The notes beneath the pieces are model-generated. The model was given only the letters and a program-made list of their open reading frames with translations. It ran no database searches and was not told where the DNA came from. A DNA stretch of 64,000 nt from a virus: positions 34,276 to 98,275 of IMG/VR virus record IMGVR_UViG_3300046660_000367; one strand, 5' to 3'. The translations under genes and the position numbers were made by a program. Numbering within the stretch: position 1 is the first letter of the stretch; each line of letters opens with the position of its first letter. Of this stretch, positions 8,909-38,625 are shown in pieces.

Positions 8909-9573
8909 GATGCCACCCGCTCGTCTACCCACACTTCGGCTGCCAGCGCCGCCATTTCTGCCACGGCCTTGTCGTCGGTTTCGGCGCGCGGGTACTCGCT
9001 GGTGGCGCGGCCGTCGCGGGCGCAGCGGCGGTAGGCCTTGCGCGAATGGACTTCGGTGGCCAGGATCGTGTAGTTCTGCATGTCGGCCAGCGCTTCACGC
9101 ATTTCCGCCACGTCCTGCTGCTGGGCGTTGGTGGGGGCGCAGTTGACCAGCAACACGGCGGCGAGGCCTTCGTTGATGGTGCGCACCTCGCCCACCAGCC
9201 TATCCATGGTGAAGGTCGAGAAGATATCGAACTGCGACGGTTCGCAGGGCGTGACGATCAGGTCCGCTACCATCATCGCGGCGCGCAGCTCGATCGAGTC
9301 CTGGCCACCGGCGTCGATGACGATGTGGTCGTATTTGTCCTTGAGGGCGCGCACTTCCTCCTTGAGCGACTTGCCGCGCAGGCCGATGCAGGTGATCGCC
9401 GGCAGAATGCCTTCCTCGCGCCGCGCTGCCGCCCATTGCTGCGCCGATCCCTGCTTGTCGGTGTCGATCAGCAGCACGTCCTTGCCCTGAGCCGCGCACG
9501 ATACCACCAGGTTGACCGCGATCGTGCTTTTGCCGACCCCGCCCTTTTCCGCTCCTACCACGACGATTGCCAT
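8905..9573 (-). CDS. parA: ParA-type partition ATPase
   Basis: A 222-residue protein of the small ParA/MinD ATPase class. It begins MAIVVVGAEKGGVGKST, which holds the deviant Walker A motif KGGVGKST (residues 9-16); IDTDKQGSAQQW (switch I region) and HIVIDAGG (Walker B region) follow, then TPCEPSQFD. The start at 9573 has a strong AAGGGGG ribosome site; the longer frame does not. It would move plasmid copies apart using the RHH partner. The short length without an N-terminal HTH is type Ib. Confidence 0.9.
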   Translation of the reverse strand: MAIVVVGAEKGGVGKSTIAVNLVVSCAAQGKDVLLIDTDKQGSAQQWAAARREEGILPAITCIGLRGKSLKEEVRALKDKYDHIVIDAGGQDSIELRAAMMVADLIVTPCEPSQFDIFSTFTMDRLVGEVRTINEGLAAVLLVNCAPTNAQQQDVAEMREALADMQNYTILATEVHSRKAYRRCARDGRATSEYPRAETDDKAVAEMAALAAEVWVDERVAS

Positions 9574-12228: not shown

Positions 12229-12719
12229 GGGCAGTCTTTCAATGGCAGTTGCAGCGTTGGTGTGGCCGAGCTGCGCAGCACGTCATCAACTTGCGTGCGC
12301 ACTTCCTGTGATGGAAAGGATTTGAAGGTCTCGTACTCGCTGATCTGCGAGTTGTTGATGACGCCACCCGTCCGCTCGGCCAGCTCGGTCTGTTTCAGCT
12401 CCCTGCTCAAGCGCAGGAAGCGCGCTTCGGATGCCCAAAGCTCATCTGCGGTAAAGAAGGTGGACATGCCCTTGCTGGCAGCTGCGGCCGCCGCAGCCAG
12501 TGCCGCCTCCTTGGTGGCTGCGCGAAACGCGGTGCAGTAGCCAAACCAGAGGCTGGAAAAGGCGTCGCTAAAGTCACTCGCGCTGGCAATGCGACCGCCG
12601 ATATCGCGCAGCAGGTCCATCAGGTCCTTGGCGAAAGCAGCGTGTGCCTCGTCTACCGTGTCGGTTTCCAGAAGGAATACGCCGAACCGCTTGTCGAGTA
12701 GGGTCTTGGTGTCGATCAT
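12225..12719 (-). CDS. hypothetical protein with C-terminal HTH-like segment
   Basis: A 164-residue protein coupled to ssb (TGATG overlap). Residues 1-85 are helical with a run of alanines; residues 100-130 (RLSRELKQTELAERTGG, then NNSQISEYE) look like an XRE helix-turn-helix. The longer open frame upstream lies inside ssb and was rejected. Role unknown. Confidence 0.65.
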   Translation of the reverse strand: MIDTKTLLDKRFGVFLLETDTVDEAHAAFAKDLMDLLRDIGGRIASASDFSDAFSSLWFGYCTAFRAATKEAALAAAAAAASKGMSTFFTADELWASEARFLRLSRELKQTELAERTGGVINNSQISEYETFKSFPSQEVRTQVDDVLRSSATPTLQLPLKDCP

Positions 12720-13267
12720 CAGAATTCCCCCTGATTGACCATGGCCAGTGCCAGGCCGCGGCCGTGGCGCGCGCGCAGCTGGGCCTTGGAATGGCCAGCG
12801 GTGTCGTTGAGGATGGTCAGGTCCCGCAGGAATGGGATATCGTCCATCGGGAAGTCGGCGTTGCGGGCTGGCGCGCGTTCCGGCGGTGGTGCCTGGCGCT
12901 GCGGCGCTGGTGCGCTCTGGCCGCCACCCTCGGGGCGCCCGCCCAGCATCTGCATGGACTCGGCCACGATGTCGGTGGCGTACTTTTCGACGCCGTCCTT
13001 GTCGGTGTACTTGCGCGTTTGCAGGCGCCCCTCGACGTAGACCGACGATCCCTTTTTCAGGTACTGGCCGACGATCTCGGCCAGCTTGCCGAAGAAGCTG
13101 ATGCGGTGCCATTCGGTCGATTCCTTGACCTCGCCGGTATTCTTGTCCTTGTTCTTGTACGAGGTGGCGACGGCGATGTTGGCGATCGCATCGCCCGATG
13201 GCATGTAGCGCATTTCGGGATCGCGCCCGAGGTTACCGACAATGATGACTTTGTTGACAGATGCCAT
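12719..13267 (-). CDS. ssb: single-stranded DNA-binding protein with an extended C-terminus
   Basis: A 182-residue SSB. The OB fold spans residues 1-110 ([48 protein letters not shown]). A Pro/Gln-rich linker leads to the acidic tip MDDIPF at residues 141-146. In normal SSBs this tip is the very C-terminus and its last phenylalanine binds partners. Here 36 more residues follow in frame ([17 protein letters not shown] onward). Either the phage protein lost its stop codon or the tail has been rewired. Confidence 0.95.
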
Positions 13268-24648: not shown

Positions 24649-27357
24649 ATGGCGACTTTCTACATGGACCTGGTGGGCGGTAACGATTCCAACAACGGCA
24701 CCTCGTTTGCGAATCGCTGGAAGTCCTTTGCCTCCGGCGCGACCGCCGCGCGCACCGCGCCGGGTGACACGATCCGCGTCATGTCCTCCCCCGATCCCAC
24801 GCTGGTAGGCAACGCCACCTGGACTCAAAACAGCAAGACCATCACGCTGGCGTCTGCCGTCACCCTGAACATCACCGATTGCGAGACTGCCTGGACGGCC
24901 AGCGCGAACGTCACCAGCACCGCCGACACCGCGCAGTTCAAGGAGAACACCAGGTCGGCCAAGCATGTGATCGCGGGAGCGTTCACCACCGGCTTGTGCG
25001 CCTATCTCGCCCCGCTCAACATATCCGGTGTGTCGATCAGCAACCGCGCGTCCAACATCGTCGGCGCAGCCTCACTGACCTTGGCCGTGAATGCCAACGC
25101 GGACGAAGGTCTGCAAACCATCACATTGCCGTTCAGCGTGCTATACAACGGAGTTTATTACAGCACGGTAACGGTATCGTCAAATAGCTGGATGGCATTC
25201 GGCAGCACCTCGACCAACGCATATTCCGGCCTGTCAGCGTCAAACCCGCCGCTGCCGACCATCCTGATCGGCGCCAGCGACGGAAGCTGGCAGCGCGTGT
25301 ATTACGGCACCGAGGGCAGTACCTTCCGTATCCGGGTCGAAGGCACGAATGCTACTTCCGGCACTGTAGGATCACCGACGTGGGTGTGGGAGATCACCTT
25401 TGACTCGACTGCCCCAGGCACCATCAAGATCGATATGGCGAGCAACAGCTACCGTGCCACGCCGGTATCGGGCCTGTCGGATGGGCTTGGCAACTACATC
25501 GCCACCTTTGCCAGTGGAGTGTCGAACACCGGCTACACACTAACTCAAACAGCCACGCCCCTGACCTTAGACTTGTCGGGCTACCAGCAGGTCAGTTTTT
25601 GGGTGTACGCCAACGCCGCCATCACCGCCAACACCTTGTCGCTGCGCCTGTGCACCGACACCGCTGGCGCGACCTCAGTCCACACGATCCCTATCCCGTC
25701 GAACAACCAGGCTTCGCTGTGGTGGCCGGTAACGGTGGACCTGGGTACGAACATGAATTCCGCCATCAAGTCGGTCGCGCTGTACCAGGACGTGGATATC
25801 GCGGCAGTCACGGTGCAGATCGATAACATCATCGCCTGCAAGGCGGTCAGCAGCGCCAATTCGCTCTCGCTGACCTCGCTGATCGGCAAGGTGTGGAACT
25901 TGAACTGGGCGGCATCAACCACCTATGCCGCCAACGATATTCGTAAGCCGACACCACAGAACCGCAATGGCTTTCGCTACAAGGTGACAGCAGGCGGCGG
26001 CGGTAATTCTGGCAGCACAGAACCGACTTGGCCGCTGGAGATCGGCGCGACCATCACTGATGGCGCGCTGACCTGGGCCTGCGACGATCTGGAGGACACT
26101 TGGTACGGCATCCAGTCGATCAACGGCACCACTGTCAAACTCGATAATGGCCCGCAGACGCTGGGTAACGCGGGGCGTGGCTATGCAGGCACTACTGAGA
26201 CGGTGGCCACCTACAAGCGCGAAACCATCAAGCAGGCGATGGTTGGTACGTTTACCGCATTTAATGTTGTACAAGAGGCCGGCACGGTAGGTAGCCCGAT
26301 CACCTACAGCGGTGGCTGGAACAGTACGGACATGGCCACGCAGACCGGGGAAACCTGGATCGATGGACAGCATGGCAGCTACAACTACGGCTACCACCTG
26401 AACAACGTCTCGTACCTCACGTTCGACAACCTGAACACCGTGCGCTGTTATCAAGCCCTGGTGGGGTTGTCCACCATGGCCGGCCTACTCATTAAGAACT
26501 GCCACACCAACAACAACCTCGACACCGCGATATCGTTTGGTAACAACGGCCTCAACGCGCCATCCTCTGTAATTGGCTGCGTGGCCGACAACAATGGCTA
26601 TGCAGGGCTTAGCCTCGCCAATCCCATGGTGGGGGTCCGCCGCGCGTCCATGAACAGTAACAACCAATATGGCGTGATAGTTACTGGCGGAACTAATCAA
26701 AACCCCTTCCAGGACATCGCTGCCAAAAATAACAGCCAGGTCGGCTTTATGCTATCGGGGGCAGCCTTTCCGATAAAAGTGGCGCGGCTGGTAACTGCAT
26801 CGAACGCCAGTGCAGGGGTGTCTATCGGTGCGGGGGTAATTCTGCTCAACAGCTCCATTACCGACACCACCAAGTTCAGTGGATTTAACGTTGGCAGCAA
26901 TCTCAGCGTGTATTCGCAAAAAGACGGCGGGGTGGCCGATACGCACGTTATCACGACGTATGGCGGTACGATCATTTCCACCACCGACCAGCGCCATACT
27001 GTACCGGGGATTGCCTGGAAATTCCGCCCCACCGACACCTACCGGATTGCATCCTACCCGCTCGCCTTGTCGGTGGCCAAGATCGCCTGCGCGGCGAACG
27101 CGGCTGTTTCCGTGTCGATCTGGACCCGCCGTGACAACACCAACATCAAGGGCCAGTTGATCCTGCGCGGCGGGCAGATCGCCGGTGTCCCCAGCGACAT
27201 CGCCGTGAGCTGCACACCGTCCATCAACACCTGGACCCAATCTGGCAACCTCACCTTCACGCCGACCGAGGCGGGCGTGGTGGAGCTTTTCTTTGAGGTG
27301 TGGGACGGCGTGGGCACCAGCAATGCGTTCTGGGTCGATGACGAGTTGATCAGCTAA
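24649..27357 (+). CDS. tailspike/fibre-like protein with beta-helix and NIDO-like module
   Basis: A 902-residue protein. It begins like a fibre base (MATFYMDLVGGNDSNNGTSF). Residues about 150-300 hold a beta-sandwich module shared with the 57003-59390 product (VYYGTEGSTFRIRVEG, WVWEITFDSTAPGTIKIDM). Residues 450-780 have beta-helix-type repeats (DTAISFGNNGLN, VIGCVADNNGYAGLSLANP) as in tailspikes. The C-terminal 150 residues look like a jelly-roll binding domain. It probably binds or cleaves host surface glycan; no catalytic residues can be named. Confidence 0.75.
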   Translation: MATFYMDLVGGNDSNNGTSFANRWKSFASGATAARTAPGDTIRVMSSPDPTLVGNATWTQNSKTITLASAVTLNITDCETAWTASANVTSTADTAQFKENTRSAKHVIAGAFTTGLCAYLAPLNISGVSISNRASNIVGAASLTLAVNANADEGLQTITLPFSVLYNGVYYSTVTVSSNSWMAFGSTSTNAYSGLSASNPPLPTILIGASDGSWQRVYYGTEGSTFRIRVEGTNATSGTVGSPTWVWEITFDSTAPGTIKIDMASNSYRATPVSGLSDGLGNYIATFASGVSNTGYTLTQTATPLTLDLSGYQQVSFWVYANAAITANTLSLRLCTDTAGATSVHTIPIPSNNQASLWWPVTVDLGTNMNSAIKSVALYQDVDIAAVTVQIDNIIACKAVSSANSLSLTSLIGKVWNLNWAASTTYAANDIRKPTPQNRNGFRYKVTAGGGGNSGSTEPTWPLEIGATITDGALTWACDDLEDTWYGIQSINGTTVKLDNGPQTLGNAGRGYAGTTETVATYKRETIKQAMVGTFTAFNVVQEAGTVGSPITYSGGWNSTDMATQTGETWIDGQHGSYNYGYHLNNVSYLTFDNLNTVRCYQALVGLSTMAGLLIKNCHTNNNLDTAISFGNNGLNAPSSVIGCVADNNGYAGLSLANPMVGVRRASMNSNNQYGVIVTGGTNQNPFQDIAAKNNSQVGFMLSGAAFPIKVARLVTASNASAGVSIGAGVILLNSSITDTTKFSGFNVGSNLSVYSQKDGGVADTHVITTYGGTIISTTDQRHTVPGIAWKFRPTDTYRIASYPLALSVAKIACAANAAVSVSIWTRRDNTNIKGQLILRGGQIAGVPSDIAVSCTPSINTWTQSGNLTFTPTEAGVVELFFEVWDGVGTSNAFWVDDELIS

Positions 27358-27368
27358 GGAGGGCGGCC

Positions 27369-29528
27369 ATGGCGAACCCTCCCGATCCATCCAACGTTAA
27401 ACTGCTGTGTCACTTCAACGGCAGCGACGGCCAGACAACGACTACCGATTCGTCGCTGAATGCACGTACCTTAACTGCAAACTCCACCTACGGCGGCGTG
27501 CTATCGACTGCACAAAGCAAATTCGGAGGCGCATCACTCGCATTAGGCGGGGTTAATGGGTCAGCCGTGCCGTATTCGGGCTTTTTTGCGGCCGACAGCG
27601 ATGATTTTGCTTTTGGTGCCGGTCAATTCACGATTGAATCGTGGGCCTACTTTGCCGCAGCCCCCGGTGGCTCCGTACTTTCCATCATGCAGCAATGGGG
27701 GAGCGCGCCTAATCTAGGCTTCTTCTTCGGCATGGTCAGCGGAGCTTTGGCGTTCTACTACTCCACTACGGGGTCAGACAACCCGAACGTCGGCGCGGCG
27801 TGGACCCCAACACTGAATACGTGGTATCACATCGCCGTTGACCGCGATGCCTCTAACGTGCTTCGCGTCTACGTGGATGGCGCGGTACTGGCCAGCGCGA
27901 CCGTAGCGTCAACGTTATTTAATAGTAACCTTGCCGTGGTTGCTGGCGGGCTTTCCTCATCTTGGCCCGGCATCAATGGCTATGTCGATGATCTGCGCGT
28001 GGTCAAGGGGGAGGCGGTCTACGGTGGCGCGTTCACCCGGCCTGCCGCCGCGCTGCCGGACCCGGTGTTGACCATGGCACAGCGCATCGCCGGTATGGAC
28101 TGGGCTTTTGCTGGCCAGCCGTTCGTGCAGGTTGCCAAATCCGGCATCGACACCAGCACCCTGGACGTGGCGCAGGACGGCCAGCCCTTCTCGGCCTCCT
28201 ATGTACTGGCCAGCAGCGGCTCGGCCGCCAGCGGCAGCACCCGCCAGGCGCAAACCGTGACGGCCACCGGATCAACCGGCGTGAATGCCACGGTGGCCAC
28301 CAGCCAGGGGCAGCGCGCCACTGCCACGGCGGCACTGGCTGCCAACGCCACGGCTGCCACAGCCCAGGCGCAGACTGTTGGTGCCACGGCCACGCTGGGC
28401 GCGGACACGACCGCCAGCACCGGCCAGGCCCAGTCTGTGGCCGGGGCACTGGCCAGTAGCGAAGGGGCGACACAAGCGTTCACCGCACAGGCGCAGAGCG
28501 TGGCAGCGCTGGGCGAGGTGCGCAGCGACATGACAGCGGCCACCAGCCAGGCGCAATCCGTCGCCGCGGTTGCGGCAGTGGGCGTGGGCGCCACGGCCAG
28601 CACGGCCCAAGCGCAGAGCATCACAGCGACAGCGGTTGTCGCTGCGGCTGTGAGCGTGGCAACAAGACAAGGCCAGAGCGCAAGCGCAACCGGCCAGATC
28701 GCGGTGGACGCGGTGATCACCACCAGCCAGGCACAGTCCACGACCGCCAGCACCGCGCAAGAATTAGTCTGCAGCGTGGCCACCGGCCAGGCGCAGGGCA
28801 GTATCGCTGCTGCCAGCGTGGCCGTGGCGGCATTGGCCGGCACCGCGCAGGCCGGACAGGCAGCGCAGGCGCAGGGCCAGGTTAGTACCGATGCGCTGGC
28901 GGCGACCGCACAAGGCCAGTCGGCCAGCGCTGCCGCCGCGTTGTCAGCTTCGGCCAGCGTGGCGACTGCGCAGGCGCAGCGCGTGGCGGCCACCGGCCAG
29001 AGCGGCAGCGACAGCCAGAGCAGCAGCAGCCAGGCCCAAAGCAGCAGGGGCGATTTACTCGCCATCAGCGACGGGCAGGGCGTACAGACCTATCAGGCAG
29101 GTCAGACGGTGCAGGCCAGCGGCGAGCTGTCGGTGGCGTTCGCGGTCGAGACGCAGCAGGGGCAAGTAACCATTGCCAGCCTCGGCGTGGCCATGGACAG
29201 CAGCGCGACCACGGCGCAGGCGCAAGGCACGCATGGCGTGATTGTCGCGGGCGTGGACGGCATCGCCAGCACCGGCCAGGCCGGGCAGTCGGTCCATGGC
29301 AGCATCATCGAGTTTGTGCAGCAAGTGGGCGCCATCGCGGTGGGCCAGATCAGTGTGCGCCAGGCGGTCAGCGGGCAATTCGGGATGGCGCTGGCGGTGC
29401 AAGTCCATAGTTGCCTCCGACAGCGCCAGGCAGTCAACGGGCGGGTCGGGATGACGGCATCGGTGCAAGCCCATAGCCGCATCCGGCCAGTCCTGGCTGC
29501 TTACACCAATTTGAGGCCCGCACAATGA
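27369..29528 (+). CDS. fibre protein: LamG-like domain plus 20-residue repeats
   Basis: A 719-residue protein. Residues 1-220 form a LamG/concanavalin-like domain (NVKLLCHFNGSDGQTTT, FTIESWAYFAA, TWYHIAVDRDASNVLRVYVD). Residues about 285-650 consist of some 16 copies of a 20-residue unit with QAQSVTATA-like cores, rich in Ala, Thr and Ser and without Cys or Pro. The repeated part would form a thin flexible or coiled stalk. The C-terminus carries further Q-V repeats. Adjacent to the tailspike gene; likely a receptor-binding or accessory fibre. Confidence 0.75.
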   Translation: MANPPDPSNVKLLCHFNGSDGQTTTTDSSLNARTLTANSTYGGVLSTAQSKFGGASLALGGVNGSAVPYSGFFAADSDDFAFGAGQFTIESWAYFAAAPGGSVLSIMQQWGSAPNLGFFFGMVSGALAFYYSTTGSDNPNVGAAWTPTLNTWYHIAVDRDASNVLRVYVDGAVLASATVASTLFNSNLAVVAGGLSSSWPGINGYVDDLRVVKGEAVYGGAFTRPAAALPDPVLTMAQRIAGMDWAFAGQPFVQVAKSGIDTSTLDVAQDGQPFSASYVLASSGSAASGSTRQAQTVTATGSTGVNATVATSQGQRATATAALAANATAATAQAQTVGATATLGADTTASTGQAQSVAGALASSEGATQAFTAQAQSVAALGEVRSDMTAATSQAQSVAAVAAVGVGATASTAQAQSITATAVVAAAVSVATRQGQSASATGQIAVDAVITTSQAQSTTASTAQELVCSVATGQAQGSIAAASVAVAALAGTAQAGQAAQAQGQVSTDALAATAQGQSASAAAALSASASVATAQAQRVAATGQSGSDSQSSSSQAQSSRGDLLAISDGQGVQTYQAGQTVQASGELSVAFAVETQQGQVTIASLGVAMDSSATTAQAQGTHGVIVAGVDGIASTGQAGQSVHGSIIEFVQQVGAIAVGQISVRQAVSGQFGMALAVQVHSCLRQRQAVNGRVGMTASVQAHSRIRPVLAAYTNLRPAQ
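28215..29300 (+). repeat. 60-bp-period coding repeats of the fibre gene
   Basis: The codons for the Q-A-Q motif recur about every 60 bases (20 codons) through most of this stretch. A few units are longer or carry insertions. Such repeats recombine easily, so fibre length could vary between isolates. Confidence 0.7.
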
Positions 29529-29864: not shown

Positions 29865-30140
29865 TTAACCGGAGTGATCATCCAGCCACTCTCCCGAATG
29901 ACCTTCCTCGTTCAGACTTTGCACCACGGAACCACCACCTTGCGCATCCAAGCTCTTGAGCTTGTCGATGAGTTGTGACGCCTCGGCCACGTTCAGGCCT
30001 TTGATCCAGCTTTCGACAGTGCCGCTACGCGCTCGCATGGTGACGCCAAAGTCCTTGTAGCGCCGATCCATGAAGCGTACCGAGTAGCCGTTCTTGGCGA
30101 GCAGCGTCAGAATGTAATTCGTCTGCTTTTCCGTCGTCAT
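29865..30140 (-). CDS. hypothetical protein, last gene of the minus accessory cluster
   Basis: A 91-residue protein. It starts TTEKQTNYILTLLAKNGYSV, a pattern seen in small phage proteins that begin TxxQ...LL, and has a helix NVAEASQLIDKLKSLDAQ. It converges with the virion gene 13 bases away. Unknown role. Confidence 0.65.
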   Translation of the reverse strand: MTTEKQTNYILTLLAKNGYSVRFMDRRYKDFGVTMRARSGTVESWIKGLNVAEASQLIDKLKSLDAQGGGSVVQSLNEEGHSGEWLDDHSG

Positions 30141-30159
30141 GATTAGCTCCCCATGTAAG

Positions 30160-30726
30160 TTAAAACGGCAACCGCCGGCAATCGTGGGCGAACCGAACCA
30201 GCGCGTGCAGCAGGTCTACTCCAGGCTGCGTGTCGGCGTCGAAGCTGGGATTGAGCGCTTTCGCGGCATCGACAGCAGCGGTGAGGCCCTTGCGCACCAC
30301 CTCCTGCCCGGCCTCGTCCAGCGGTGGTGGGGCGGCTTCCTCGCGCACGATCTTGTTGTCCTGCGTGAGGTACAGTTCGCGGTCCGTCAGCATGATGTCC
30401 GCATACACCCACGGCCATTGGGTGAAGCGTTCCATATGGTATCGCTCCAGATGCAAGCGTTTCGATTTTTCATGCCGGTCGGTTTCAGCTTCAAACCATG
30501 CGAGGTTGGGTGGCAGGTCGAATATGCCGTCGTTGACCCAGCTGCGCAGCATGTTTGCGTCAGCGTCCGTGGCATCGGCGGGGATTTGCGGCTTGGCCGG
30601 TCCATCGAAGGGGTCAGCCTCGGGCATGAACCAGGCCGGAATGTCACGCGGGGCGCGTGCGGCGAAGTAGTCGAGCAGCGTGGCGCTCGATGCGGGGATT
30701 TCTGCGGCTGGCGATGTGTCGTTCAT
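30160..30726 (-). CDS. hypothetical phage protein
   Basis: A 188-residue protein. It begins with a LLDYFAARAPRDIPAWF segment, which recurs at the N-terminus of many phage accessory proteins. The start at 30726 was chosen by the ribosome site AGGAGAACCAC just before it; the 31 codons upstream have none. C-terminal half is helical. Role unknown. Confidence 0.65.
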   Translation of the reverse strand: MNDTSPAAEIPASSATLLDYFAARAPRDIPAWFMPEADPFDGPAKPQIPADATDADANMLRSWVNDGIFDLPPNLAWFEAETDRHEKSKRLHLERYHMERFTQWPWVYADIMLTDRELYLTQDNKIVREEAAPPPLDEAGQEVVRKGLTAAVDAAKALNPSFDADTQPGVDLLHALVRFAHDCRRLPF

Positions 30727-30752
30727 GTGGTTCTCCTGTTGGTGGTGGGTAG

Positions 30753-31193
30753 TTACTGCAAAGTAGGCAACAGCAGCGGCTGCGCGTTCCGATAGCGCTC
30801 CTGGTAGCCGTCCTCCCAAGGAAAGGCGCCGTTCTGCGGATCGGGCCAGACCACTTGCAGCGCGCGGTAATCGGGATTGCGGTACAGCGCCTGGAACATG
30901 AACTGGTCGGCCATGGCGCGCTCGGCCTGGACCAGTTGCACGTCAGCGGCCAGCACGTCCTGCAGGCGGGTATAGCTTGGCAGGACTTCGCCGTCGCTCA
31001 TGCGCTGGGCCAGCGTGTTCAGCGCGAAGCCGGCGACCTCGAAGGGCAGCGAGAAGGTGATCAGTTCGGGCAGGTGCTTGTCGGTCAGGCCGATGGTGTA
31101 GGCGAAGCTGGGCGTGTCGTTACTGCCGCCGACTAGCTGCACCATCCAGCCGACGCGGGCGATGATCTGCTCAGGGGTTTCAAGTTTGCGCAT
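30753..31193 (-). CDS. DUF4262 protein
   Basis: A 146-residue protein matching DUF4262: VGWMVQLVGGSNDTPSFAYT, IGLTDKHLPELITFSLP, LYRNPDYRALQVVWPDPQNG and PWEDGY at the end. The family is common in plasmids, phages and islands; its activity is unknown. Confidence 0.85.
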   Translation of the reverse strand: MRKLETPEQIIARVGWMVQLVGGSNDTPSFAYTIGLTDKHLPELITFSLPFEVAGFALNTLAQRMSDGEVLPSYTRLQDVLAADVQLVQAERAMADQFMFQALYRNPDYRALQVVWPDPQNGAFPWEDGYQERYRNAQPLLLPTLQ

Positions 31194-31195
31194 GG

Positions 31196-31942
31196 TCAGC
31201 TCCCCATGAACACTTCAAACAGCGGCACCGAACCACCAGAGGCAACAGGGGTCAGGTTCTCGAAGAACACATGGTCGCCAAGGTCGTCTTTGATGACCGA
31301 CTTGTGCAGCAGCCAGATGATCTCGGCATAGCTCATGTCGTGCGTGCCGTCGCCGATGTGCTTGATGTTTTTCTTGCCCCGGAACCGCCAGCTGCGCGGG
31401 AACCGAATGTCCAGCTCAGTCAAGCCGGACAGTGCGGCCAGCCGGGTAACGTCATACGGCTTGATTGCCGGGTTGTCGCCGTGGATATCCTGCTCCTGTA
31501 CCGCTACAGCCGCCATAAATGCAGCGGGCGACTCGGGCAGGTTTTCGGGGAGCATGGGCCATTGAAAACGGCGTCCGAACAGCGGATGCAGTTCTTCTTC
31601 CGTGTATTCCTCGTCGTCCTCGTCGTCCTCGCACTCCGGTTCGGGCATGAAGCCCTCGGCCAGCGCGACCTGCTTCGATGTAGTGTAGAAGGTGGCGTAG
31701 TCATCGGCGACACTGCCGTTGTCTTGCAGATCGATGCCAAGCGCCTTCCAGCGGTCGAGCAGGGCAACGGCATCGGCCAGCGCCGTGCGGAACTCGTCGA
31801 AGCTGGCCGCGTCGATGGCGAGGTACTTGTTGCGCCACAGGTAGCTGTAGGTGGTGCCTTCGGGCGCGTTGCGGATGGTGGCGGCATCCTCGGCGCTCAG
31901 GCCGGGATGGACGGTTTCCTGCGGGGTCTTACGCTTGGTCAT
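31196..31942 (-). CDS. hypothetical acidic protein
   Basis: A 248-residue protein with an acidic middle (ECEDDEDDEEYTEEEL, residues 101-116) and an RFPRSWRFRGKKNIKHIGDG stretch. The start at 31942 follows AGGAG. The C-terminal part reads as beta strands and a VASGGSVPLFEVF end. It overlaps the DUF4262 start region closely. No family recognised. Confidence 0.65.
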   Translation of the reverse strand: MTKRKTPQETVHPGLSAEDAATIRNAPEGTTYSYLWRNKYLAIDAASFDEFRTALADAVALLDRWKALGIDLQDNGSVADDYATFYTTSKQVALAEGFMPEPECEDDEDDEEYTEEELHPLFGRRFQWPMLPENLPESPAAFMAAVAVQEQDIHGDNPAIKPYDVTRLAALSGLTELDIRFPRSWRFRGKKNIKHIGDGTHDMSYAEIIWLLHKSVIKDDLGDHVFFENLTPVASGGSVPLFEVFMGS

Positions 31943-31952
31943 GCTGGTTCTC

Positions 31953-32174
31953 CTAAAGCTCATTGAAAAAAGGGTCATCGGTCGTGCTGCACACCATTCG
32001 AGCGTGGCACGCGGTCCATGCTGGCCCCACACTTTCCAGCACCGCCGCTTCCGCGTGCGCGAGAGCGGTTGCGGTCAGCAAGAAGCGTGCATAGATGTTT
32101 TGCGGGTGGTTCTTGACGACGACGTAATACACCCAGCGTTTGGCCGGGTCGCCGGGCGGGTTATGAATCGGCAT
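31953..32174 (-). CDS. hypothetical protein
   Basis: A 73-residue protein (RWVYYVVVKNHPQNIYARFL, ALAHAEAAVLESVGPAW). AGGAGAACC lies before the ATG at 32174. It may be a small beta-alpha protein. It overlaps the following HTH-like gene. Confidence 0.6.
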   Translation of the reverse strand: MPIHNPPGDPAKRWVYYVVVKNHPQNIYARFLLTATALAHAEAAVLESVGPAWTACHARMVCSTTDDPFFNEL

Positions 32175-32352
32175 GCTGGTTCTCCTGTTTGGGTTGGGCT
32201 GCAAGTTCGGCCTGGTACTCTTTCCACAGGACCGAACGGTAAAGGGTGGATAAGGCGATGCCGACCCGCTTGGCCGCGGCGTAGCCGGTCATCCCGCCGC
32301 GCACGAGTTTCATTACCTTGACCATTTCTACTGATGTGCGTCGTCCGCTCAT
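32161..32352 (-). CDS. small HTH-like protein
   Basis: A 63-residue protein with a helix-turn-helix look (TGYAAAKRVGIALSTLYRSV, residues 22-41) after a helix VEMVKVMKLVRGGM. Small DNA-binding regulators of phage clusters are like this. AAGGAG before the ATG. Confidence 0.65.
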   Translation of the reverse strand: MSGRRTSVEMVKVMKLVRGGMTGYAAAKRVGIALSTLYRSVLWKEYQAELAAQPKQENQHADS

Positions 32353-32497
32353 GTTGGCTCCTTGTTCTGTTGTTGCTGGTTCCCGCTGTGCTTTGCAGCG
32401 GGATTTTAAGCCATCCCCCGCATTGGGGATGCCGACCGGGTTGATCGCCGGTCGTTGTCGCTGTTAATTCAGTTCAATCTCCTTGGTGGTGATGCGG

Positions 32498-32656
32498 TTA
32501 GCGGGGGTTCAGGCCGTTGCGGTCGCCGAGTGCGCCGCCAATGGCGACGACCAGTCGGCCAATCGCCAGGTGTTCCGCAATCCAGTCGCTGATGCTGTGC
32601 TGCGACATCAGTTCGACCAGCGCCACGATAACGATAGCGGCAAGTTTCACGCGCAT
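32498..32656 (-). CDS. small membrane protein
   Basis: A 52-residue protein with a strong AAGGAGG ribosome site. The N-terminal stretch LAAIVIVALVEL (4-15) and the segment LAIGRLVVAIGGALG (30-44) are hydrophobic, giving one or two membrane spans. Role unknown. Confidence 0.6.
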   Translation of the reverse strand: MRVKLAAIVIVALVELMSQHSISDWIAEHLAIGRLVVAIGGALGDRNGLNPR

Positions 32657-32784
32657 GGATACCTCCTTAGTAGTAAGCGGTGGACGCTGCCCTGCGGTGC
32701 AGGGCAAACCGTCCGTCTATCCCATGACTGCTCTTATCGTTATTCAGCGCTCGCGCTCTAGTGGCTGCGGCCTGTTGCTGCTGG

Positions 32785-32810
32785 TGCCAAAGCCCCATCT
32801 TGTGGGGCAG
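32785..32810 (-). repeat. intercistronic hairpin repeat, copy 1
   Basis: A 26-base element whose core is GCCCCA-TCTTG-TGGGGC (32792-32808). On the minus strand it reads GCCCCA-loop-TGGGGC followed by TTTGG, like a weak terminator. A second copy lies at 33338-33363 with one base changed in the loop (TCGTG). Both lie between genes of the minus accessory cluster. Confidence 0.75.
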
Positions 32811-32834
32811 AGGGTGCAGCATGGGCGGGCGGCG

Positions 32835-33083
32835 TCAGCGTGGTGGGATAAGCGCCTTCGGCGGCGGCAAGATTGAGCGGAAGACCTTGCACGCCGCTTC
32901 GCGCTTCTCGCGCATTTCACTGGAGCCGTACCAGTCTGGCCCCTCGACCCAGCAGGGGGCGGCATTGGGCAGGCTGCAAACCACTAGCTCCAGATCGGTG
33001 TCGATTTCACGCAGCAGACGGCGTAGGTGGGACGCTTCGGCGGCGTTCGGCTTGCGGTCGGACAGGGCGATGAAGTGGGACAT
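32835..33083 (-). CDS. hypothetical protein
   Basis: An 82-residue basic protein with a helix SHLRRLLREIDTDLELVVCS and a WVEGPDWYGSSEMREKREAA segment. TGGAG precedes the ATG at 33083. It follows hairpin copy 1 downstream in the minus cluster. No family recognised. Confidence 0.6.
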   Translation of the reverse strand: MSHFIALSDRKPNAAEASHLRRLLREIDTDLELVVCSLPNAAPCWVEGPDWYGSSEMREKREAACKVFRSILPPPKALIPPR

Positions 33084-33106
33084 GATGTTCTCCAGTGGAC
33101 CAGGTG

Positions 33107-33295
33107 TCATACGTTGACAACTTCAGCTTCAGGATTAATGTCGAAGTCTGCATTGACGCAGTGCGGGCCTTTTGTATTTATTTTGAAGCCGTCTTCACTA
33201 GGGTAGCAGGCAGCTGCGTAATCGAGCGCGTCGCTTTCGTTGCCGATGATAGTGGCGACATGCAAACTGTTTTCGTCAAGAATGTAGAAGTTCAT
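33107..33295 (-). CDS. hypothetical protein
   Basis: A 62-residue protein with a beta hairpin (FYILDENSLHVATIIGNESD) and an acidic end. A ribosome site AGGAGAACACC precedes ATG 33295. Flanked by the two hairpin repeats. Unknown role. Confidence 0.6.
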   Translation of the reverse strand: MNFYILDENSLHVATIIGNESDALDYAAACYPSEDGFKINTKGPHCVNADFDINPEAEVVNV

Positions 33296-33337
33296 GGTGT
33301 TCTCCTGTCCTGGCCGCGCCGGGTGCACAGCTCCTAC

Positions 33338-33363
33338 TGCCAAAGCCCCATCGTGTGGGGCAG
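33338..33363 (-). repeat. intercistronic hairpin repeat, copy 2
   Basis: The second copy of the element at 32785-32810: same stem GCCCCA/TGGGGC, 25 of 26 bases identical. Selection on a stem in a fast-changing gene cluster suggests a working terminator, attenuator or processing site. Confidence 0.75.
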
Positions 33364-33400
33364 TGGCGGAACATGGGGCGGGGCGGATCGTCAGTACGCG

Positions 33401-34159
33401 CTACGAGCGGTCGATAATCTCCTGACCGTCGATGCGGTCGGCGAGGTAGTGCGCTTTAAGCTCCGCTTTCAGGTCGTCTTCGTCGTCTTCGTCGCGGCAG
33501 CCAACACCGTCGATCTCGTCGAGCAGGTCGATTACTGTGTCGCGGGAAAGGTCAGCGATGGCGACCAGCACGCCGTCGGCCTTCTCGCCATCGGCGTGTG
33601 GGGCGGGAGGCTCGATCACGGTCCAGCCGCGCGCACGCATGATGTAGGCGACAGTCTGCAAAGTGTCGTGCGGCACGTCGGCATCATCGACCGAGATCAT
33701 GGCGCGGCACTCGGGGCAGACCCCGGCTGGCACCAGTTCGCCAGCGCTGATGCGTTCGTGGATATGGTGAAGGTGGTGCAGTCCGTCCATATCGTCCATG
33801 GTGCCGGTCCAGTCGCAATCGGGGCATTCATACACGGTGGCTGACGGGGCCGGGGCAGGGTGTTCGACCGTCTCGCCATTGACCTCGTACAGGCTCGGCG
33901 TGCCGCGCAGGCTAACTTCGCCTATGATCGGATCGCCGCTGCGCCATGCGCCGAAGTTGGTATCTGCGCAGTGCAGTGCCCCTTTCAGCTGGAGGCGTGC
34001 GTCAGCCTCGTCGCTGGCCTTGACGCGCAGCGCAGCGGCCAGGACGACATCGAAGGCGTATTCGTTTTGCTGAGTGGCTGGCGCGGCGGCGGGTTCCCCA
34101 AGTTGGTACATGTTGTCGCGCCGGAGTCCTTCCAGCAGCGTGGTGGGTTTCTGTTCCAT
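33401..34159 (-). CDS. hypothetical acidic protein with zinc ribbon
   Basis: A 252-residue protein. YECPDCDWTG (about 110-119) and VCPECRAM (about 147-154) are two CxxC knuckles, with HH residues between. The N-terminal part has an ASDEADARLQLKGALHC strand-helix, and the C-terminus is very acidic (CRDEDDEDDLKAELKAHYLA). An adaptor or nucleic acid-binding factor is possible. GGAGCAACACC before the ATG. Confidence 0.65.
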   Translation of the reverse strand: MEQKPTTLLEGLRRDNMYQLGEPAAAPATQQNEYAFDVVLAAALRVKASDEADARLQLKGALHCADTNFGAWRSGDPIIGEVSLRGTPSLYEVNGETVEHPAPAPSATVYECPDCDWTGTMDDMDGLHHLHHIHERISAGELVPAGVCPECRAMISVDDADVPHDTLQTVAYIMRARGWTVIEPPAPHADGEKADGVLVAIADLSRDTVIDLLDEIDGVGCRDEDDEDDLKAELKAHYLADRIDGQEIIDRS

Positions 34160-34185
34160 GGTGTTGCTCCTTTCATGTGGTGGTC

Positions 34186-34241
34186 GGGACAGTTCCCGCT
34201 CATGCGCCCTGGCTCGCAGGACGCATGCGCTGGTGCTGTCC
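34186..34241 (-). repeat. intercistronic hairpin (diverged copy)
   Basis: GGACAG (34187-34192) pairs with CTGTCC (34236-34241) and CATGCG (34201-34206) with CGCATG (34222-34227), forming a two-part hairpin in the gap between two minus-strand genes. It has the same place as, and resembles, the elements at 35973 and 37224. Confidence 0.6.
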
Positions 34242-34483
34242 TAGCCCTCGTTCTGCAGCGGGTCGTAGCCCAAGGCAGCGACTCGGTGCGCGGCGATGTT
34301 CAGGTCTTTGCCGTCATCGTCGCACGCATCCTCGTCGGCCATTTCCGGCAGGGCGTCGGGTCGCGCTTGCCAGTAGTCGTACAGCTTTTCGGCGTCGGCC
34401 ACGCTGCGCAGCCCTGCGGCCATGTCCTCGTCTTGCCAGCCCAGCCAATCCGCAATGGCGACGGCTTTTTCGCGTGTATTCAT
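34241..34483 (-). CDS. hypothetical acidic protein
   Basis: An 80-residue protein with EKAVAIADWLGWQDEDMAAG and DYWQARPDALPEMADEDACD. It is strongly acidic. A ribosome site GGAGAACAAC precedes the ATG at 34483. No family recognised. Confidence 0.65.
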   Translation of the reverse strand: MNTREKAVAIADWLGWQDEDMAAGLRSVADAEKLYDYWQARPDALPEMADEDACDDDGKDLNIAAHRVAALGYDPLQNEG

Positions 34484-34507
34484 GTTGTTCTCCAGTCGTG
34501 GGTGGGC

Positions 34508-35053
34508 TTATTCGGGCAGGGGCTTGAATAGCAGCGCGCCGTCGATGATCGGCTCCCACGGGATCGGGCCGGTGGTGTCAAGCGGGACGCGCCCGATGTA
34601 GGTCGGTTCGGTGTCGGTGTCCAATTCGTAATGCTTGCGCCACGCGATCATCGCGTCGTCGGCGGTGGACGCACGCACTAGCAGGTCTTGGTCGCCCTCG
34701 TGGTCGCGCACATAGAACATGGGCAGCACCGGTTCCTTGTGTTCGACCAGCTGGTAGCCGCAGTAGGCGACGTTGCCAACGATGATGGCCGGGTAGTCGT
34801 AGCCATCGGCGGCGCTGGTGGGTGCTTCCAGCACCAATGGGGACCACGGTTTCCAGCCAGTGACGGCCAGGGCGGTGTGGTAGGTGTCGGTGTCACGGAA
34901 TTGCACGGTGGTGGTGTACTTCTGCTCGAAGTGTGTCACGCCAGCGACAACCAGCCGGTAGCTCGGCGCGGCCTGCGAGATTTCTTCCTGCTGCGCCTCG
35001 CTCAGGCCGTCAGGGTAGGGGAACGGGTAGCCGTTCGATAGAATCAGGTTCAT
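34508..35053 (-). CDS. hypothetical protein
   Basis: A 181-residue protein with a beta-rich fold (YRLVVAGVTHFEQKYTTTVQ, YPAIIVGNVAYCGYQLVEHK) and an acidic tail. The start at 35053 was chosen because AAGGAG is seven bases before it; a TTG two codons upstream has poor spacing. Role unknown. Confidence 0.65.
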   Translation of the reverse strand: MNLILSNGYPFPYPDGLSEAQQEEISQAAPSYRLVVAGVTHFEQKYTTTVQFRDTDTYHTALAVTGWKPWSPLVLEAPTSAADGYDYPAIIVGNVAYCGYQLVEHKEPVLPMFYVRDHEGDQDLLVRASTADDAMIAWRKHYELDTDTEPTYIGRVPLDTTGPIPWEPIIDGALLFKPLPE

Positions 35054-35055
35054 GG

Positions 35056-35469
35056 TCAAGCTCCTTGGTCTTCGGTTGCGCCATCATTGGTGACAGCGGC
35101 GGGGGATACCCCGGCTTCCTCGTCAGTGATCCATATCCAGGCCATGACATAGGCCCCCGGATCGTCGCCACGCGAGACCACGGCGGGAACATCGACCTCC
35201 AGTTCACCTTCGCTCACGTGGCCGAGCGCTGCGGCGACGTAGGGATTGCTCGCGTCCTCGCCGAACAGCGGCACCACGTCGCAGAAAACGACGCCGGGCT
35301 GCCCCAGCTCCTTGGCCAGCGCGAGCAGGTCGCCGGAGTGCAGGTCGATGGCGGCGGACATGTCGTTGGTGTCGATCCAGGCAGCGGTATTGCGCAGCGC
35401 GAAGCGGATGGCTTGCAGTTGCTGCGCGGTGAGCGCGTACAGCGTCGGTTTGTCGTCAGTCTGGTTCAT
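35056..35469 (-). CDS. hypothetical acidic protein
   Basis: A 137-residue acidic protein with LTAQQLQAIRFALRNTAAWI, LLALAKELGQPGVVFCDVVP and a DDPGAYVMAWIWITDEEAGV end. It overlaps the start region of the next gene. The pattern is of an alpha/beta domain. Role unknown. Confidence 0.65.
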   Translation of the reverse strand: MNQTDDKPTLYALTAQQLQAIRFALRNTAAWIDTNDMSAAIDLHSGDLLALAKELGQPGVVFCDVVPLFGEDASNPYVAAALGHVSEGELEVDVPAVVSRGDDPGAYVMAWIWITDEEAGVSPAAVTNDGATEDQGA

Positions 35470-35932
35470 GTGCGGCTCCTTGGAGGATGGTGATGGTTTG
35501 CATGTTGCCCAGCTTGCCACGGTGGGCGCAGTCGTTGCACTCAGCGTAACTGTCGTTGTCCCATTCCATGTCGCCGCTGGGGCCGTCCTGCACATCATGG
35601 TCATCATCGGGCAGGAACTCGACGATGACCGATTGCAGCACGTCGAGCTTGAAGGTATGCCCGCCGCACGCTGGGCAGGTGTATTCCGGCTCGTCCTCGT
35701 CTTCCTCGTCATCGTCCGGCATGGTGGTAGGCAGGTGCGTGTTGAAACGCGCCATGTCGGCCTCGATCCGGCTCAGCCAGCGCGGCGCGATCTCCACGCC
35801 GTTCTCGTAGCCGAATTTGATCTGGCCGGCCTTGACCATGGCGTACACGCGGCCCATGGCCGGGTGCAGGCCGGTGTCGTTGGGATGGACGTGAGCCAGG
35901 TAGGCGGCGTCGAAAGTGTCAAAGCGTTGCAT
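35456..35932 (-). CDS. hypothetical acidic protein with zinc ribbon
   Basis: A 158-residue protein with an acidic linker (MPDDDEEDEDEPEY) followed by TCPACGGHTFKLDV and ECNDCAHRG, a four-cysteine zinc ribbon. The C-terminus is LGNMQTITILQGAAHEPD. Start 35932 chosen by ribosome site GGA before the ATG. A DNA- or RNA-contacting adaptor is possible. Confidence 0.65.
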   Translation of the reverse strand: MQRFDTFDAAYLAHVHPNDTGLHPAMGRVYAMVKAGQIKFGYENGVEIAPRWLSRIEADMARFNTHLPTTMPDDDEEDEDEPEYTCPACGGHTFKLDVLQSVIVEFLPDDDHDVQDGPSGDMEWDNDSYAECNDCAHRGKLGNMQTITILQGAAHEPD

Positions 35933-35972
35933 GGTGTCCTCCGTATGGGTGGTGGATCGGGACAGCTCCCGC

Positions 35973-35999
35973 GTCAGCGCCCCGTCAAGAGGCGCTGAC
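35973..35999 (-). repeat. intercistronic hairpin, 9-bp perfect stem
   Basis: GTCAGCGCC (35973-35981) and GGCGCTGAC (35991-35999) with a 9-base loop, six bases past the stop of the 36006-36551 gene. AGCGCC/GGCGCT with ACACTGGC after it recurs at 37227-37254, so the element is repeated. Confidence 0.8.
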
Positions 36000-36005
36000 A
36001 CTGGC

Positions 36006-36551
36006 TCAGTCCTTCTGGTTGATCGGGTTGTCAGGATCGGCACCGGGCGTGCCCCAGCCGAACAGCGAGCCGTTGAACATGGCTCTGGCTTGTGCTGGGG
36101 TGACGCCGCTGGCCTCGTTCAACGCAGCGGCGGTCATATTGGTGTAGATCGGGTTGTAGCCCGTTTCGCCGCGTGTCACGCTGATGACAGGCGGGATGCC
36201 ATGCGGGCCAGTGCACAATCCGGTGTTCTCAACGAACGCCTGCGGTGGCAGCTTGGCGAGGTTGGCGGGGTGGAGCAGACGGTCCTGAATCGCCTTCTTT
36301 TCCGCCTGATAGGCCGGTTCAAACTCGGCCACGGTGCCGTCATAGTCGCAAGCGAGGCAGGTGCAGGGCGATTCGTCGTGCCATTCGTGGCCGGTGCCGC
36401 CGTTGTGCGCTTGGTCCTCGTCGGTGCCGTCCGCAGTCAGGCGCACCTTGACGGTGGCGGTGATGTCAAGCTGGTCGCTGGCCCCGCACTGCGGGCAGAA
36501 CAGGCCGAACTGGTTGTCGCATGCGGTCAGGTTGGGGTGGGTGTGCATGGT
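36006..36551 (-). CDS. hypothetical protein with zinc ribbon
   Basis: A 181-residue protein. LFCPQCGASDQL (about 16-27) and CTCLACDYDG (about 62-71) give two CxxC knuckles. The C-terminal part reads GETGYNPIYTNMTAAALNEA and MFNGSLFGWGTPGA. Start at 36551 (second ATG) chosen by AAAGGAG spacing. It overlaps the upstream stop by three bases. Confidence 0.65.
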   Translation of the reverse strand, partial: TMHTHPNLTACDNQFGLFCPQCGASDQLDITATVKVRLTADGTDEDQAHNGGTGHEWHDESPCTCLACDYDGTVAEFEPAYQAEKKAIQDRLLHPANLAKLPPQAFVENTGLCTGPHGIPPVISVTRGETGYNPIYTNMTAAALNEASGVTPAQARAMFNGSLFGWGTPGADPDNPINQKD

Positions 36552-36883
36552 CATTCTCCTTTGACGGTGGCGAGGTTGGCGAAGGCGCGGCGCAGCGTGC
36601 CCCACGGCAGATCGAAACGGGGATCGCTGGCGCGCTTGGCATCGGCGGCGAGGAAGTCGCGCACTGCATCGGCCAGGATGGCGTGGGCCGGGAGCGCCTC
36701 GATCATGGGTTGCACCAGTTCGATATCGGCGATCTTCGCTTCCAGTTCGGCGCAGGTTTCTGACTCGGCGTCGTCATCCTGGCTAGAGGCCAGATCGTCG
36801 TTCAGGGTGGCCAGCAGCTCGGTGATGCAGTAGTCGATGACGGCCCCGGCGTCGGGGAAGAATCTAAGGTCAGTCGTTTTCAT
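36551..36883 (-). CDS. hypothetical acidic protein
   Basis: A 110-residue acidic, helical protein (ELLATLNDDLASSQDDDAES, ELEAKIADIELVQPMIEALP). No motif is recognised. GGAG before the ATG at 36883. Member of the minus accessory cluster. Confidence 0.65.
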   Translation of the reverse strand: MKTTDLRFFPDAGAVIDYCITELLATLNDDLASSQDDDAESETCAELEAKIADIELVQPMIEALPAHAILADAVRDFLAADAKRASDPRFDLPWGTLRRAFANLATVKGE

Positions 36884-36909
36884 GGCATAACTCCTTGGTG
36901 GCTGGTCAG

Positions 36910-37179
36910 TTAGTTCTGGCAGTTATCGCACAGCCCGATCTGGCCCGATTCCAGCGGGTTGGCGCAGCGTTCGCAGTAGGTGCTGCCCATCGGGTCTTCA
37001 TCCTCGTCCTCATCAGGTTGAGGGTAGGCGCGCAGGTCGATGCGCTCGCCGACACCCAGCACGGCGCAATGATCAATATCGTTGATCGGCATCCAGTCCT
37101 GTTCATCGACGCTGAACACCCGCACGATGGCGTCGGGCGGCAGTGTGGCGAGGCTGGCAATCAGTTGTGTGACGTTCAT
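36910..37179 (-). CDS. hypothetical acidic protein with zinc ribbon
   Basis: An 89-residue protein with an acidic patch (PQPDEDEDEDPMG) and C-terminal YCERCANPLESGQIGLCDNC, a CxxC...CxxC zinc ribbon. The start at 37179 was chosen by GGAGATCACC. The same architecture, acidic patch plus ribbon, recurs in several neighbours. Confidence 0.65.
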   Translation of the reverse strand: MNVTQLIASLATLPPDAIVRVFSVDEQDWMPINDIDHCAVLGVGERIDLRAYPQPDEDEDEDPMGSTYCERCANPLESGQIGLCDNCQN

Positions 37180-37223
37180 GGTGATCTCCTTGCTGGTGGG
37201 TGGTGGATCGGCATAGTGCCCGC

Positions 37224-37249
37224 GTGAGCGCCCCGCGAGAGGCGCTGAC
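37224..37249 (-). repeat. intercistronic hairpin, copy of the 35973 element
   Basis: AGCGCC (37227-37232) and GGCGCT (37241-37246) with flanking pairs, eight bases past the stop of the 37257-37619 gene. The shared ACACTGGC next to the stem shows it is the same element as at 35973. Confidence 0.75.
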
Positions 37250-37256
37250 ACTGGCA

Positions 37257-37619
37257 TTAGGCCGCATGCGCCCGCTGGGCCTCCTTGGCGTCCTTGGCGG
37301 CATAGTATGCCTTGACCTCAGCCAGGATGGCATCGAGCTGGCCCAGCGCCTGCGCATGCACCAGTGCTACCGTTTTCTCAGTGCTGCGCGCGTTGGCGTC
37401 CAGTGCCACGGTCTTGCTGTAGTCGCCGAACAGCTCAAACGACATGAAACCGCGTTCGACCTTGTGTACGGACGCAAAGGCGCTGACGCCAGCGGCACGG
37501 CCATTCGATTCGCGCTTGCTGGTGTTGAAGCGCAGCACGCGGGTGCCCTCCAGCGCTACATCGGTGGTGGCCTGCCAGCCGCGATGCTTGCTCTTTTCCA
37601 GCCTGACTTGATGTTCCAT
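37257..37619 (-). CDS. hypothetical protein
   Basis: A 120-residue basic, helical protein (TRVLRFNTSKRESNGRAAGV, AQALGQLDAILAEVKAYYAA). Its stop lies just before the repeated hairpin. AAGGAG precedes the ATG at 37619. Unknown function. Confidence 0.65.
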   Translation of the reverse strand: MEHQVRLEKSKHRGWQATTDVALEGTRVLRFNTSKRESNGRAAGVSAFASVHKVERGFMSFELFGDYSKTVALDANARSTEKTVALVHAQALGQLDAILAEVKAYYAAKDAKEAQRAHAA

Positions 37620-37695
37620 GACGATCTCCTTGAGTGAGTGACGAGGGGGAGTGACGAACGACGAACCGGGGCGCGTGGCCCCGGCAATACGCGGG

Positions 37696-38544
37696 TCAGG
37701 CTTTCAACGTGGCCATGCGCTCGGCCAGGACCCACAGAGCTTTGTTCAACCGCAGGTCCTCATTGACCGACTTGATGGCGCGCGTGCGCATCCGTTTGCC
37801 AGTGGTGCCGCGCCCAGCAATGCCGCCCTTGACGAAATTTTCCTGCACCACGTTGAAGGTGGTCCACAAGTCGGGCAGCGTGTCATCACGGCGTTGCGGG
37901 CGCAGCAGCGCAGCAGGCTCAAACGGCGCGGTGCTGTTGCCGTCCAGGTCGGCAGGGTAGCGTAGCTGCACAGCGGCGGCGGCAAACGCGGCCTGCTCGC
38001 CCCGGTCAAGCTGGATACGCTTCATGACATCGACATGCTCCAGTACCTGCGGCATGGTCTCTATGATGCGGCAGCAACCGTCGATCACCATGCCGCCCAC
38101 GTTGCTAGAGTGGCGCAGGCTGATCGCGCCCAGGTCGCTGGATTTGACCATCAGGCCATTGGAGCATTTGAGGCGGAACAGGCCCGCTTCGAGCTGGAAG
38201 CCGCTGGAGCGGTCATGCGAGTTGACCAGTACGATTTCAGGGATTTCAGGTTCCAGCTCGCCATGTTTCGCATAGAAGTGATGACCAGGATTGAGCGCCT
38301 GACGGTCAACCATGTCCTGCGCACGTTGAAAGCGGACCATGTGCTTAGTGAATTCGCCCTTGCCCTCAATGCGGCAAGCGCTTTGCTGGGCCTTGACCGG
38401 CATGAAGCCCTCTTTGCGCATCATTTCCACTACGTCGATGGTCGGAATGAAGGCGTACTTGTCGGACACCTCGGCCCATGCCGTGGTGGCGAAGATCGAT
38501 GGGGCGGCGCGCAGGAGCTGCTGATTCGTCAGAGCGGCAATCAT
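37696..38544 (-). CDS. DUF932 protein
   Basis: A 282-residue protein of DUF932 (phage/plasmid-like TIGR03299): YAFIPTIDVVEMMRKEGFMP, VNSHDRSSGFQLEAGLFRLK, CSNGLMVKSSDLGAISLRHS. It is the first gene of the minus accessory cluster and follows a sigma70-like promoter. DUF932 proteins are frequent in mobile elements; their function is not settled. Confidence 0.85.
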   Translation of the reverse strand: MIAALTNQQLLRAAPSIFATTAWAEVSDKYAFIPTIDVVEMMRKEGFMPVKAQQSACRIEGKGEFTKHMVRFQRAQDMVDRQALNPGHHFYAKHGELEPEIPEIVLVNSHDRSSGFQLEAGLFRLKCSNGLMVKSSDLGAISLRHSSNVGGMVIDGCCRIIETMPQVLEHVDVMKRIQLDRGEQAAFAAAAVQLRYPADLDGNSTAPFEPAALLRPQRRDDTLPDLWTTFNVVQENFVKGGIAGRGTTGKRMRTRAIKSVNEDLRLNKALWVLAERMATLKA

Positions 38545-38596: not shown

Positions 38597-38625
38597 ACTA
38601 TATAGCATTACGCTACATACTTCAA
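38597..38625 (-). promoter_or_regulatory. sigma70-like promoter of the minus accessory cluster
   Basis: On the minus strand TTGAAG (38625-38620), 17 bases, TATAGT (38602-38597), about 55 bases before the DUF932 ATG. The 90-base gap also serves the divergent terminase small subunit gene. Confidence 0.55.

Follow-up and report, generated by a model that had tools for sequence, protein, structure and literature searches.

Structured sequences between genes are known from several phage and mobile systems. The polycistronic early mRNA of phage T7 carries RNase III sites between its cistrons, in the form of irregular hairpins about two helical turns long. T4-like phages have promoter early stem-loop (PeSL) cassettes, mobile stem-loop units that lie between small early genes, carry an early promoter, and are linked to module shuffling. 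Integron attC sites are imperfect inverted repeats between cassettes, with structure conserved over sequence. In cluster K mycobacteriophages, start-associated sequences (SAS) and extended SAS (ESAS) are repeats of unknown function upstream of the start codons of non-structural genes; about half of them contain inverted repeats that are imperfect and separated by a variable spacer, and ESAS have a conserved 13-bp GGGATAGGAGCCC and conserved 17-bp arms (PMC3203893). Here we describe an element, designated E, from a cluster of minus-strand genes in a 64,000-nt window (positions 34276–98275 of a 98,275-base IMG/VR virus contig). E is a hairpin of ~60 nt lying in gaps of ~70 nt between genes; the window contains three copies, all in the cluster. 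This structured intercistronic RNA is the most unusual feature of the cluster and was missed by the original prediction, which had been made from the window sequence.

A conserved RNA structure between stop and start codons

The intercistronic gaps were bimodal in length, either ~0–30 nt or 60–90 nt, and the long ones contained E. The frame of the element has a constant order: GACAG, with a stop codon in it or next to it, is followed by CCAG, the helix, CGGG, AAUUGUCCCG, and a Shine-Dalgarno (SD) sequence. GACAG pairs with UUGUC to form the outer stem. Inside it there are a CC/GG step with a conserved A.G mismatch and a 12–13-bp helix of free sequence. The distance from the end of E to the next start codon was 11–26 nt. 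All 49 copies placed on gene calls were located between immediate neighbours, and 44 started at one of two stop-codon offsets. In one register, UGAC, the UGA overlaps the stem; in the other, the stop codon comes after GAC, and the upstream protein therefore ends in Asp. UAGAC also occurs.

The copies in the window were scored with R1, a covariance model built from E copies. E1 (37203–37259, minus strand, as are all cluster features below) occupies the m2–m3 gap, with the UAA of m2 in the stem (48.8 bits, E-value 1.7e-9; fold z = −2.87). E2 (35952–36012, m5–m6 gap) has the last codon of m5, GAC, and its UGA stop in the outer stem (75 bits, 3.2e-16; z = −3.92). In E3 (34179–34241, m9–m10 gap), the UAG of m9 overlaps the outer stem (60.6 bits, 1.6e-12; z = −4.16).

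Base pairing was assessed with RNAalifold and explicit counts. In alignment A2, which contains 34 distinct copies from the related group, 96.2% of the cells were paired, and 60 were doubly changed compared with 19 ± 3 in shuffles (0/500); slid controls were ~40% paired. The outer stem, which is absent from the R1 model, was paired in 93.6% of cells and had 18 double changes against 7.2 ± 1.7 expected. Alignment A6 has 60 rows, 54 of them elements from distant phages (see below). Its main helix contained 169 double-change cells vs. 57.5 ± 5.6 in shuffles, and RNAalifold picked the outer stem and the main helix unaided. The ratio of G.U to A.C pairs in the main helix was 110:7, and in A6 it was 102:6. 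The great excess of G.U indicates that selection acts on the mRNA strand rather than on a DNA palindrome. These results show E to be an RNA structure that is conserved on the sense strand and linked both to the preceding stop codon and to the start codon that follows; it is very probably a functional cis-acting RNA. Stable G+C-rich hairpins in gaps could also suggest an intrinsic terminator or attenuator between genes. This reading is scarcely credible, as no U-tract follows the hairpin, which is succeeded by AUAACC...AAGGAG. Identification of E as a terminator, an attC site, or a promoter was rejected on sequence.

The 3' segment of E, CGGGAAUUGUCCCG, is able to fold on itself instead (B form, GGGA/UCCC hairpin). 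Where the outer stem is present, the outer-stem form (A form) is better by ~3.7 kcal/mol. Variation is nearly absent from the frame and from the alternative 3' hairpin, but the helix is not bound to any particular sequence. These properties, together with the conserved mismatch and the fixed stop-codon register, are consistent with the main rival to processing or insulation, namely that E serves as an operator bound by a protein or as a true bistable switch. In that case an RNA-binding protein, of the phage or of the host, would read the GACAG/CCAG...CGGGAAUUGUCCCG frame and set translation of the module, A form vs. B form. However, the SD sequence lies outside both folds, which argues against a simple translational switch, and no candidate regulator was identified; we consider this explanation rather unlikely. 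A related possibility, which we judge unlikely, is a termination-coupled RNA switch. With the stop codon inside the structure, the terminating ribosome would switch it from one of the two folds (outer stem or 3' hairpin) to the other and thereby set the expression of the next module, whatever its gene. E would then serve unrelated phages as a universal adaptor by which accessory genes are plugged into early operons.

Distribution of E and exchange of gene modules

A search with the DUF932 protein encoded in the cluster retrieved sister contigs (L003/L098, nearly identical; L004/L153 and L005/L122, ~80%), and a search with the large terminase yielded 55 loci. Terminase relatives in bacterial genomes were found in Rhodocyclales and Burkholderiales, among others, and the host is therefore likely betaproteobacterial. 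No close DNA match to the window was found among named phages; the large terminase gene (terL) led only to distant named phages. In related phages, a serine recombinase gene adjoins the large terminase gene (L119:2805–3371, L120:4167–4739).

About 18 related phage contigs carry the cluster, an operon of accessory genes, at one fixed locus, flanked by the small terminase gene on one side and a conserved gene of 108 residues on the other. The shared backbone order is m2, zinc module, m7, helix-turn-helix (HTH) m14, DUF4262, and m18, with cassettes gained or lost. Sister phages retain m1, m2, m5, m7, m8, m10, m14, and m16–m18; the remaining genes are swapped or dropped. The lead gene encodes DUF932 in the group of the window and RadC (Pfam 3.6e-43) in many others, and no contig contained both. 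The original prediction had proposed such a comparison for gain and loss and regarded high conservation of gene order as evidence against its reading. Cassettes are indeed swapped or dropped in this variable operon, and conservation of order was found for the backbone only.

Homology between sister phages breaks off at E1, E2, and E3. In pairwise comparisons of phages, E junctions were broken in 220 of 294 cases (75%) and other junctions in 540 of 976 (55%; odds ratio 2.4), and in 141 cases E was retained between non-homologous neighbours. Because breakpoints are commoner at E in the pairwise counts and E survives between unrelated genes, E may also ease module exchange. It could even be mainly a recombination device, a short conserved island between unrelated genes allowing homologous exchange of modules, like the boundary or linker sequences of phages. 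We regard this as improbable. The comparisons are not independent, and the excess of breaks vanished over unique adjacency types (p = 0.68). Selection on base pairs with one-strand G.U tolerance implies a role as RNA that recombination does not need, and the unrelated helix sequences of distant copies weaken homology. As a separate observation, N- and C-terminal modules, small Cys-rich ends included, were swapped among relatives of m5, m7, m8, and m10 (35056–36548 and 33401–35053).

Above 44 bits, R1 detected 51 copies in sense orientation, none of them outside the cluster of related contigs; the 98-kb record of the window contained three, again all in the cluster. Two phages that are more distant and were not part of the training set (records L151 and L152) also yielded E with this model; the locus was the same, and every copy occupied a gap, beginning at the stop codon. 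The clusters of these two phages share almost no genes with the window. A second model, R2, gave 1–5 clear copies per record and additional weaker ones in L151. No convincing R1 matches were obtained in 94 other loci or, with strict filters, in 300 Burkholderiales genomes.

A helix-independent pattern, in which only the frame of E is fixed and the helix is left free, matched 88 stretches in IMG/VR; the reversed control pattern matched none. Outside the terminase group there were 70 instances on 67 loci, representing 55 distinct sequences. The stop codon overlapped GAC in 68 of these 70, SD and start codon followed in 62, and the helix sequences were unrelated. Neighbouring genes belonged to 64 families, including ArdC N-domain, DUF7227, GP88, and a sliding-clamp-like protein. 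Eight unrelated viral contigs have E in front of ArdC N-domain (anti-restriction) genes, and in many distant contigs E follows DUF7227-family genes. Phage DSL-LC05 shares a DUF7227 gene, with no E there. The match in L325 was rejected as a false positive, having no stop codon or start in register, and an earlier leader pattern was discarded, its matches outside the group being mostly due to chance.

The same pattern had no matches in 399 Burkholderiales genomes. As none of the scanned Burkholderiales genomes contained E, neither a bacterial host nor a prophage copy is known. Searches with Rfam release 15 gave no covariance-model match at or above the gathering threshold near E in the window, L134, L146, or L129, and no match in the distant loci L280, L289, L308, L317, L325, L273, and L266. 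Blast of single E copies against phages and plasmids returned chance matches only, and the sequence of E was not found in the literature searched.

Gene content of the operon and the counter-defence question

As originally predicted, 19 minus-strand genes occupy 29865–38544, from open reading frame m1 (37696–38544) to m19 (29865–30140); a separate gene caller gave the identical set. Most have an SD sequence, and the junctions are short or overlapping. The promoter was found exactly where it had been placed, at 38597–38625, as a sigma-70-like TTGAAG-17 nt-TATAGT sequence on the minus strand (38625–38597), which is shared by three sister contigs led by DUF932. Its −10 is overlapped by a palindrome, TATGTAGCGTAATGCTATATA (38599–38619; consensus TATRTAGCRTnATGCTATATA); 15 of 17 related contigs retain it ahead of the lead gene, irrespective of the identity of that gene. 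It is a single site in the whole window, with 0 expected, and is probably the binding site of some regulator.

The lead gene, m1, belongs to DUF932 (PF06067; 3e-33, 115.9 bits vs. a gathering score of 23). In its AlphaFold model, which is confident (predicted local distance difference test, pLDDT, 84), the order of elements is strand-strand-strand-helix, and the best PDB matches are RAD52 ring subunits, which are not significant (E-value 0.24). The m1–m2 gap (37620–37698) contains a hairpin, GCCGGGGC/GCCCCGGT, which is not E; it is present in four DUF932-lead contigs (z = −1.94). It is followed by m2 (37257–37619), basic and conserved in ten contigs, and, after E1, by the acidic m3 (36910–37179, paired CxxC), m4 (36551–36883, no assigned function), and m5 (36006–36548, paired CxxC). 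Downstream of E2 are m6 (35456–35932, acidic patch and paired CxxC), the acidic backbone gene m7 (35056–35469), and the acidic m8 (34508–35053, no assigned function) and m9 (34241–34483). PHROGs without assigned function were matched by m5 (10280), m7 (6739), and m9 (20093; 3.8e-26). E3 precedes m10 (33401–34159), acidic, with a zinc-ribbon-like module common to other phages.

The remainder of the operon comprises m11 (33107–33295, small and acidic), m12 (32835–33083, no assigned function), m13 (32498–32656, short and hydrophobic), m14 (32161–32352, resolvase-type HTH just under the Pfam cut-off, conserved in 15 contigs), m15 (31953–32174, no assigned function), m16 (31196–31942, acidic patch), m17 (30753–31193), m18 (30160–30726, conserved in thirteen contigs), and m19 at the operon end, with no assigned function. 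The m17 protein is DUF4262 (PF14081; 1.5e-30, 106.5 bits vs. a gathering score of 28). A second repeated hairpin, GCCCCA...TGGGGCTTTGGCA, has two copies (33296–33403 and 32760–32840), so far in the window only. This hairpin is distinct from E, and its folding was no better than that of shuffles.

The products had been described as mostly acidic and unknown. The first point held for most of them, the exceptions being m1, m2, m13, and m14, which are basic, and m12, which is near neutral; the difference from the rest of the window was modest (median isoelectric point 4.64 vs. 5.45, Mann-Whitney p = 0.033). As for the second, only m1 and m17 had Pfam matches above cut-off. At least four genes with paired CxxC motifs had been claimed, and these were m3, m5, m6, and m10, a marginal enrichment (4 of 19 vs. 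5 of 80 other genes, Fisher p = 0.066); zinc-ribbon matches of cluster proteins were all under cut-off.

From these features, the cluster had been read as an island of counter-defence genes, with products that mimic DNA or act as zinc-ribbon inhibitors. Small, acidic, and variable genes at a fixed locus fit this reading, and the ArdC N-domain genes preceded by E in unrelated contigs and the RadC genes that lead many related clusters lend it weak, indirect support. However, no cluster protein matched a known anti-defence family in Pfam or PHROGs, and the acidity is only modestly above that of the rest of the phage. PADLOC also gave no match; its models represent defence, not anti-defence. The m7 model (predicted template modelling score 0.46) was too weak for fold comparison, and the DUF932 model had no significant fold match in PDB. 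We regard the reading, and with it an anti-defence function of the cluster, as possible but doubtful. The cluster proteins are probably early accessory factors, possibly with counter-defence proteins among them.

Several genes outside the cluster were also observed. The left minus-strand block contains a ParA-like ATPase at 8905–9573, and an SSB-like gene is present at 12719–13267; a phage-plasmid lifestyle is possible from these two genes. Just past the cluster end, long plus-strand proteins (24649–29528) with repeated ATSQAQSVxA-type motifs are tail-fibre-like.

Proposed role of E and comparison with known systems

The explanation that we favour as the probable one is an operon of exchangeable modules whose borders carry E, a cis-acting structured RNA that insulates or processes the mRNA. 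Transcription of this accessory operon would start at a single promoter under operator control, and its gene modules would be exchangeable. A ribosome terminating on the upstream gene would cover E and melt its outer stem. After its departure, the irregular hairpin of ~20 bp would close and separate the mRNA modules. Closed E could act as a processing or stability element, either RNase III-like or exonuclease-blocking, and would uncouple translation of neighbouring modules.

Several points weigh against this explanation. The processing or insulation step is deduced from the anatomy of E, and although it is plausible, we stop short of calling it probable; the free SD sequence does not prove processing. 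Many cluster junctions are short and without E, so E does not stand before every gene. Pairwise counts between phages lack independence, alignments made with R1 lean towards the R1 structure, and the far set was chosen on its flanks, which leaves the main helix as its only unbiased test.

Absent from Rfam, E would be a new cis-element organising polycistronic phage mRNA, and it makes testable how modules are swapped without loss of expression control. It also provides a search handle: accessory operons, some of which contain anti-restriction genes, can be recognised by E, which hence indicates where to seek new counter-defence genes. Because E is linked to ArdC and RadC genes, these operons merit testing for counter-defence.

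Among the known systems, the RNase III sites of T7 resemble E in being irregular intercistronic hairpins of ~20 bp, and by analogy RNase III cleavage of E is hypothetical; the T7 sites are not registered on a stop codon and have no E frame. Like PeSL, E is a stem-loop between small genes associated with module shuffling, but no TTGACA/TATAAT-like pair occurs within the E alignments. E and attC sites are both imperfect inverted repeats between cassettes with structure conserved over sequence. However, E has no GTTRRRY/RYYYAAC core boxes, its ends being GACAG/UUGUC and CCAG/CGGG, and no integrase is linked to it; in contrast to attC, its G.U tolerance points to RNA. Like SAS and ESAS, E has an inverted repeat shortly before a start codon, and the spacer within the repeat is variable. 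The 13-bp GGGATAGGAGCCC at the start codon is absent from the E alignments, and E differs from ESAS in its sequence-free covarying helix, in the upstream stop codon placed in the outer stem, and in its presence in unrelated phages.

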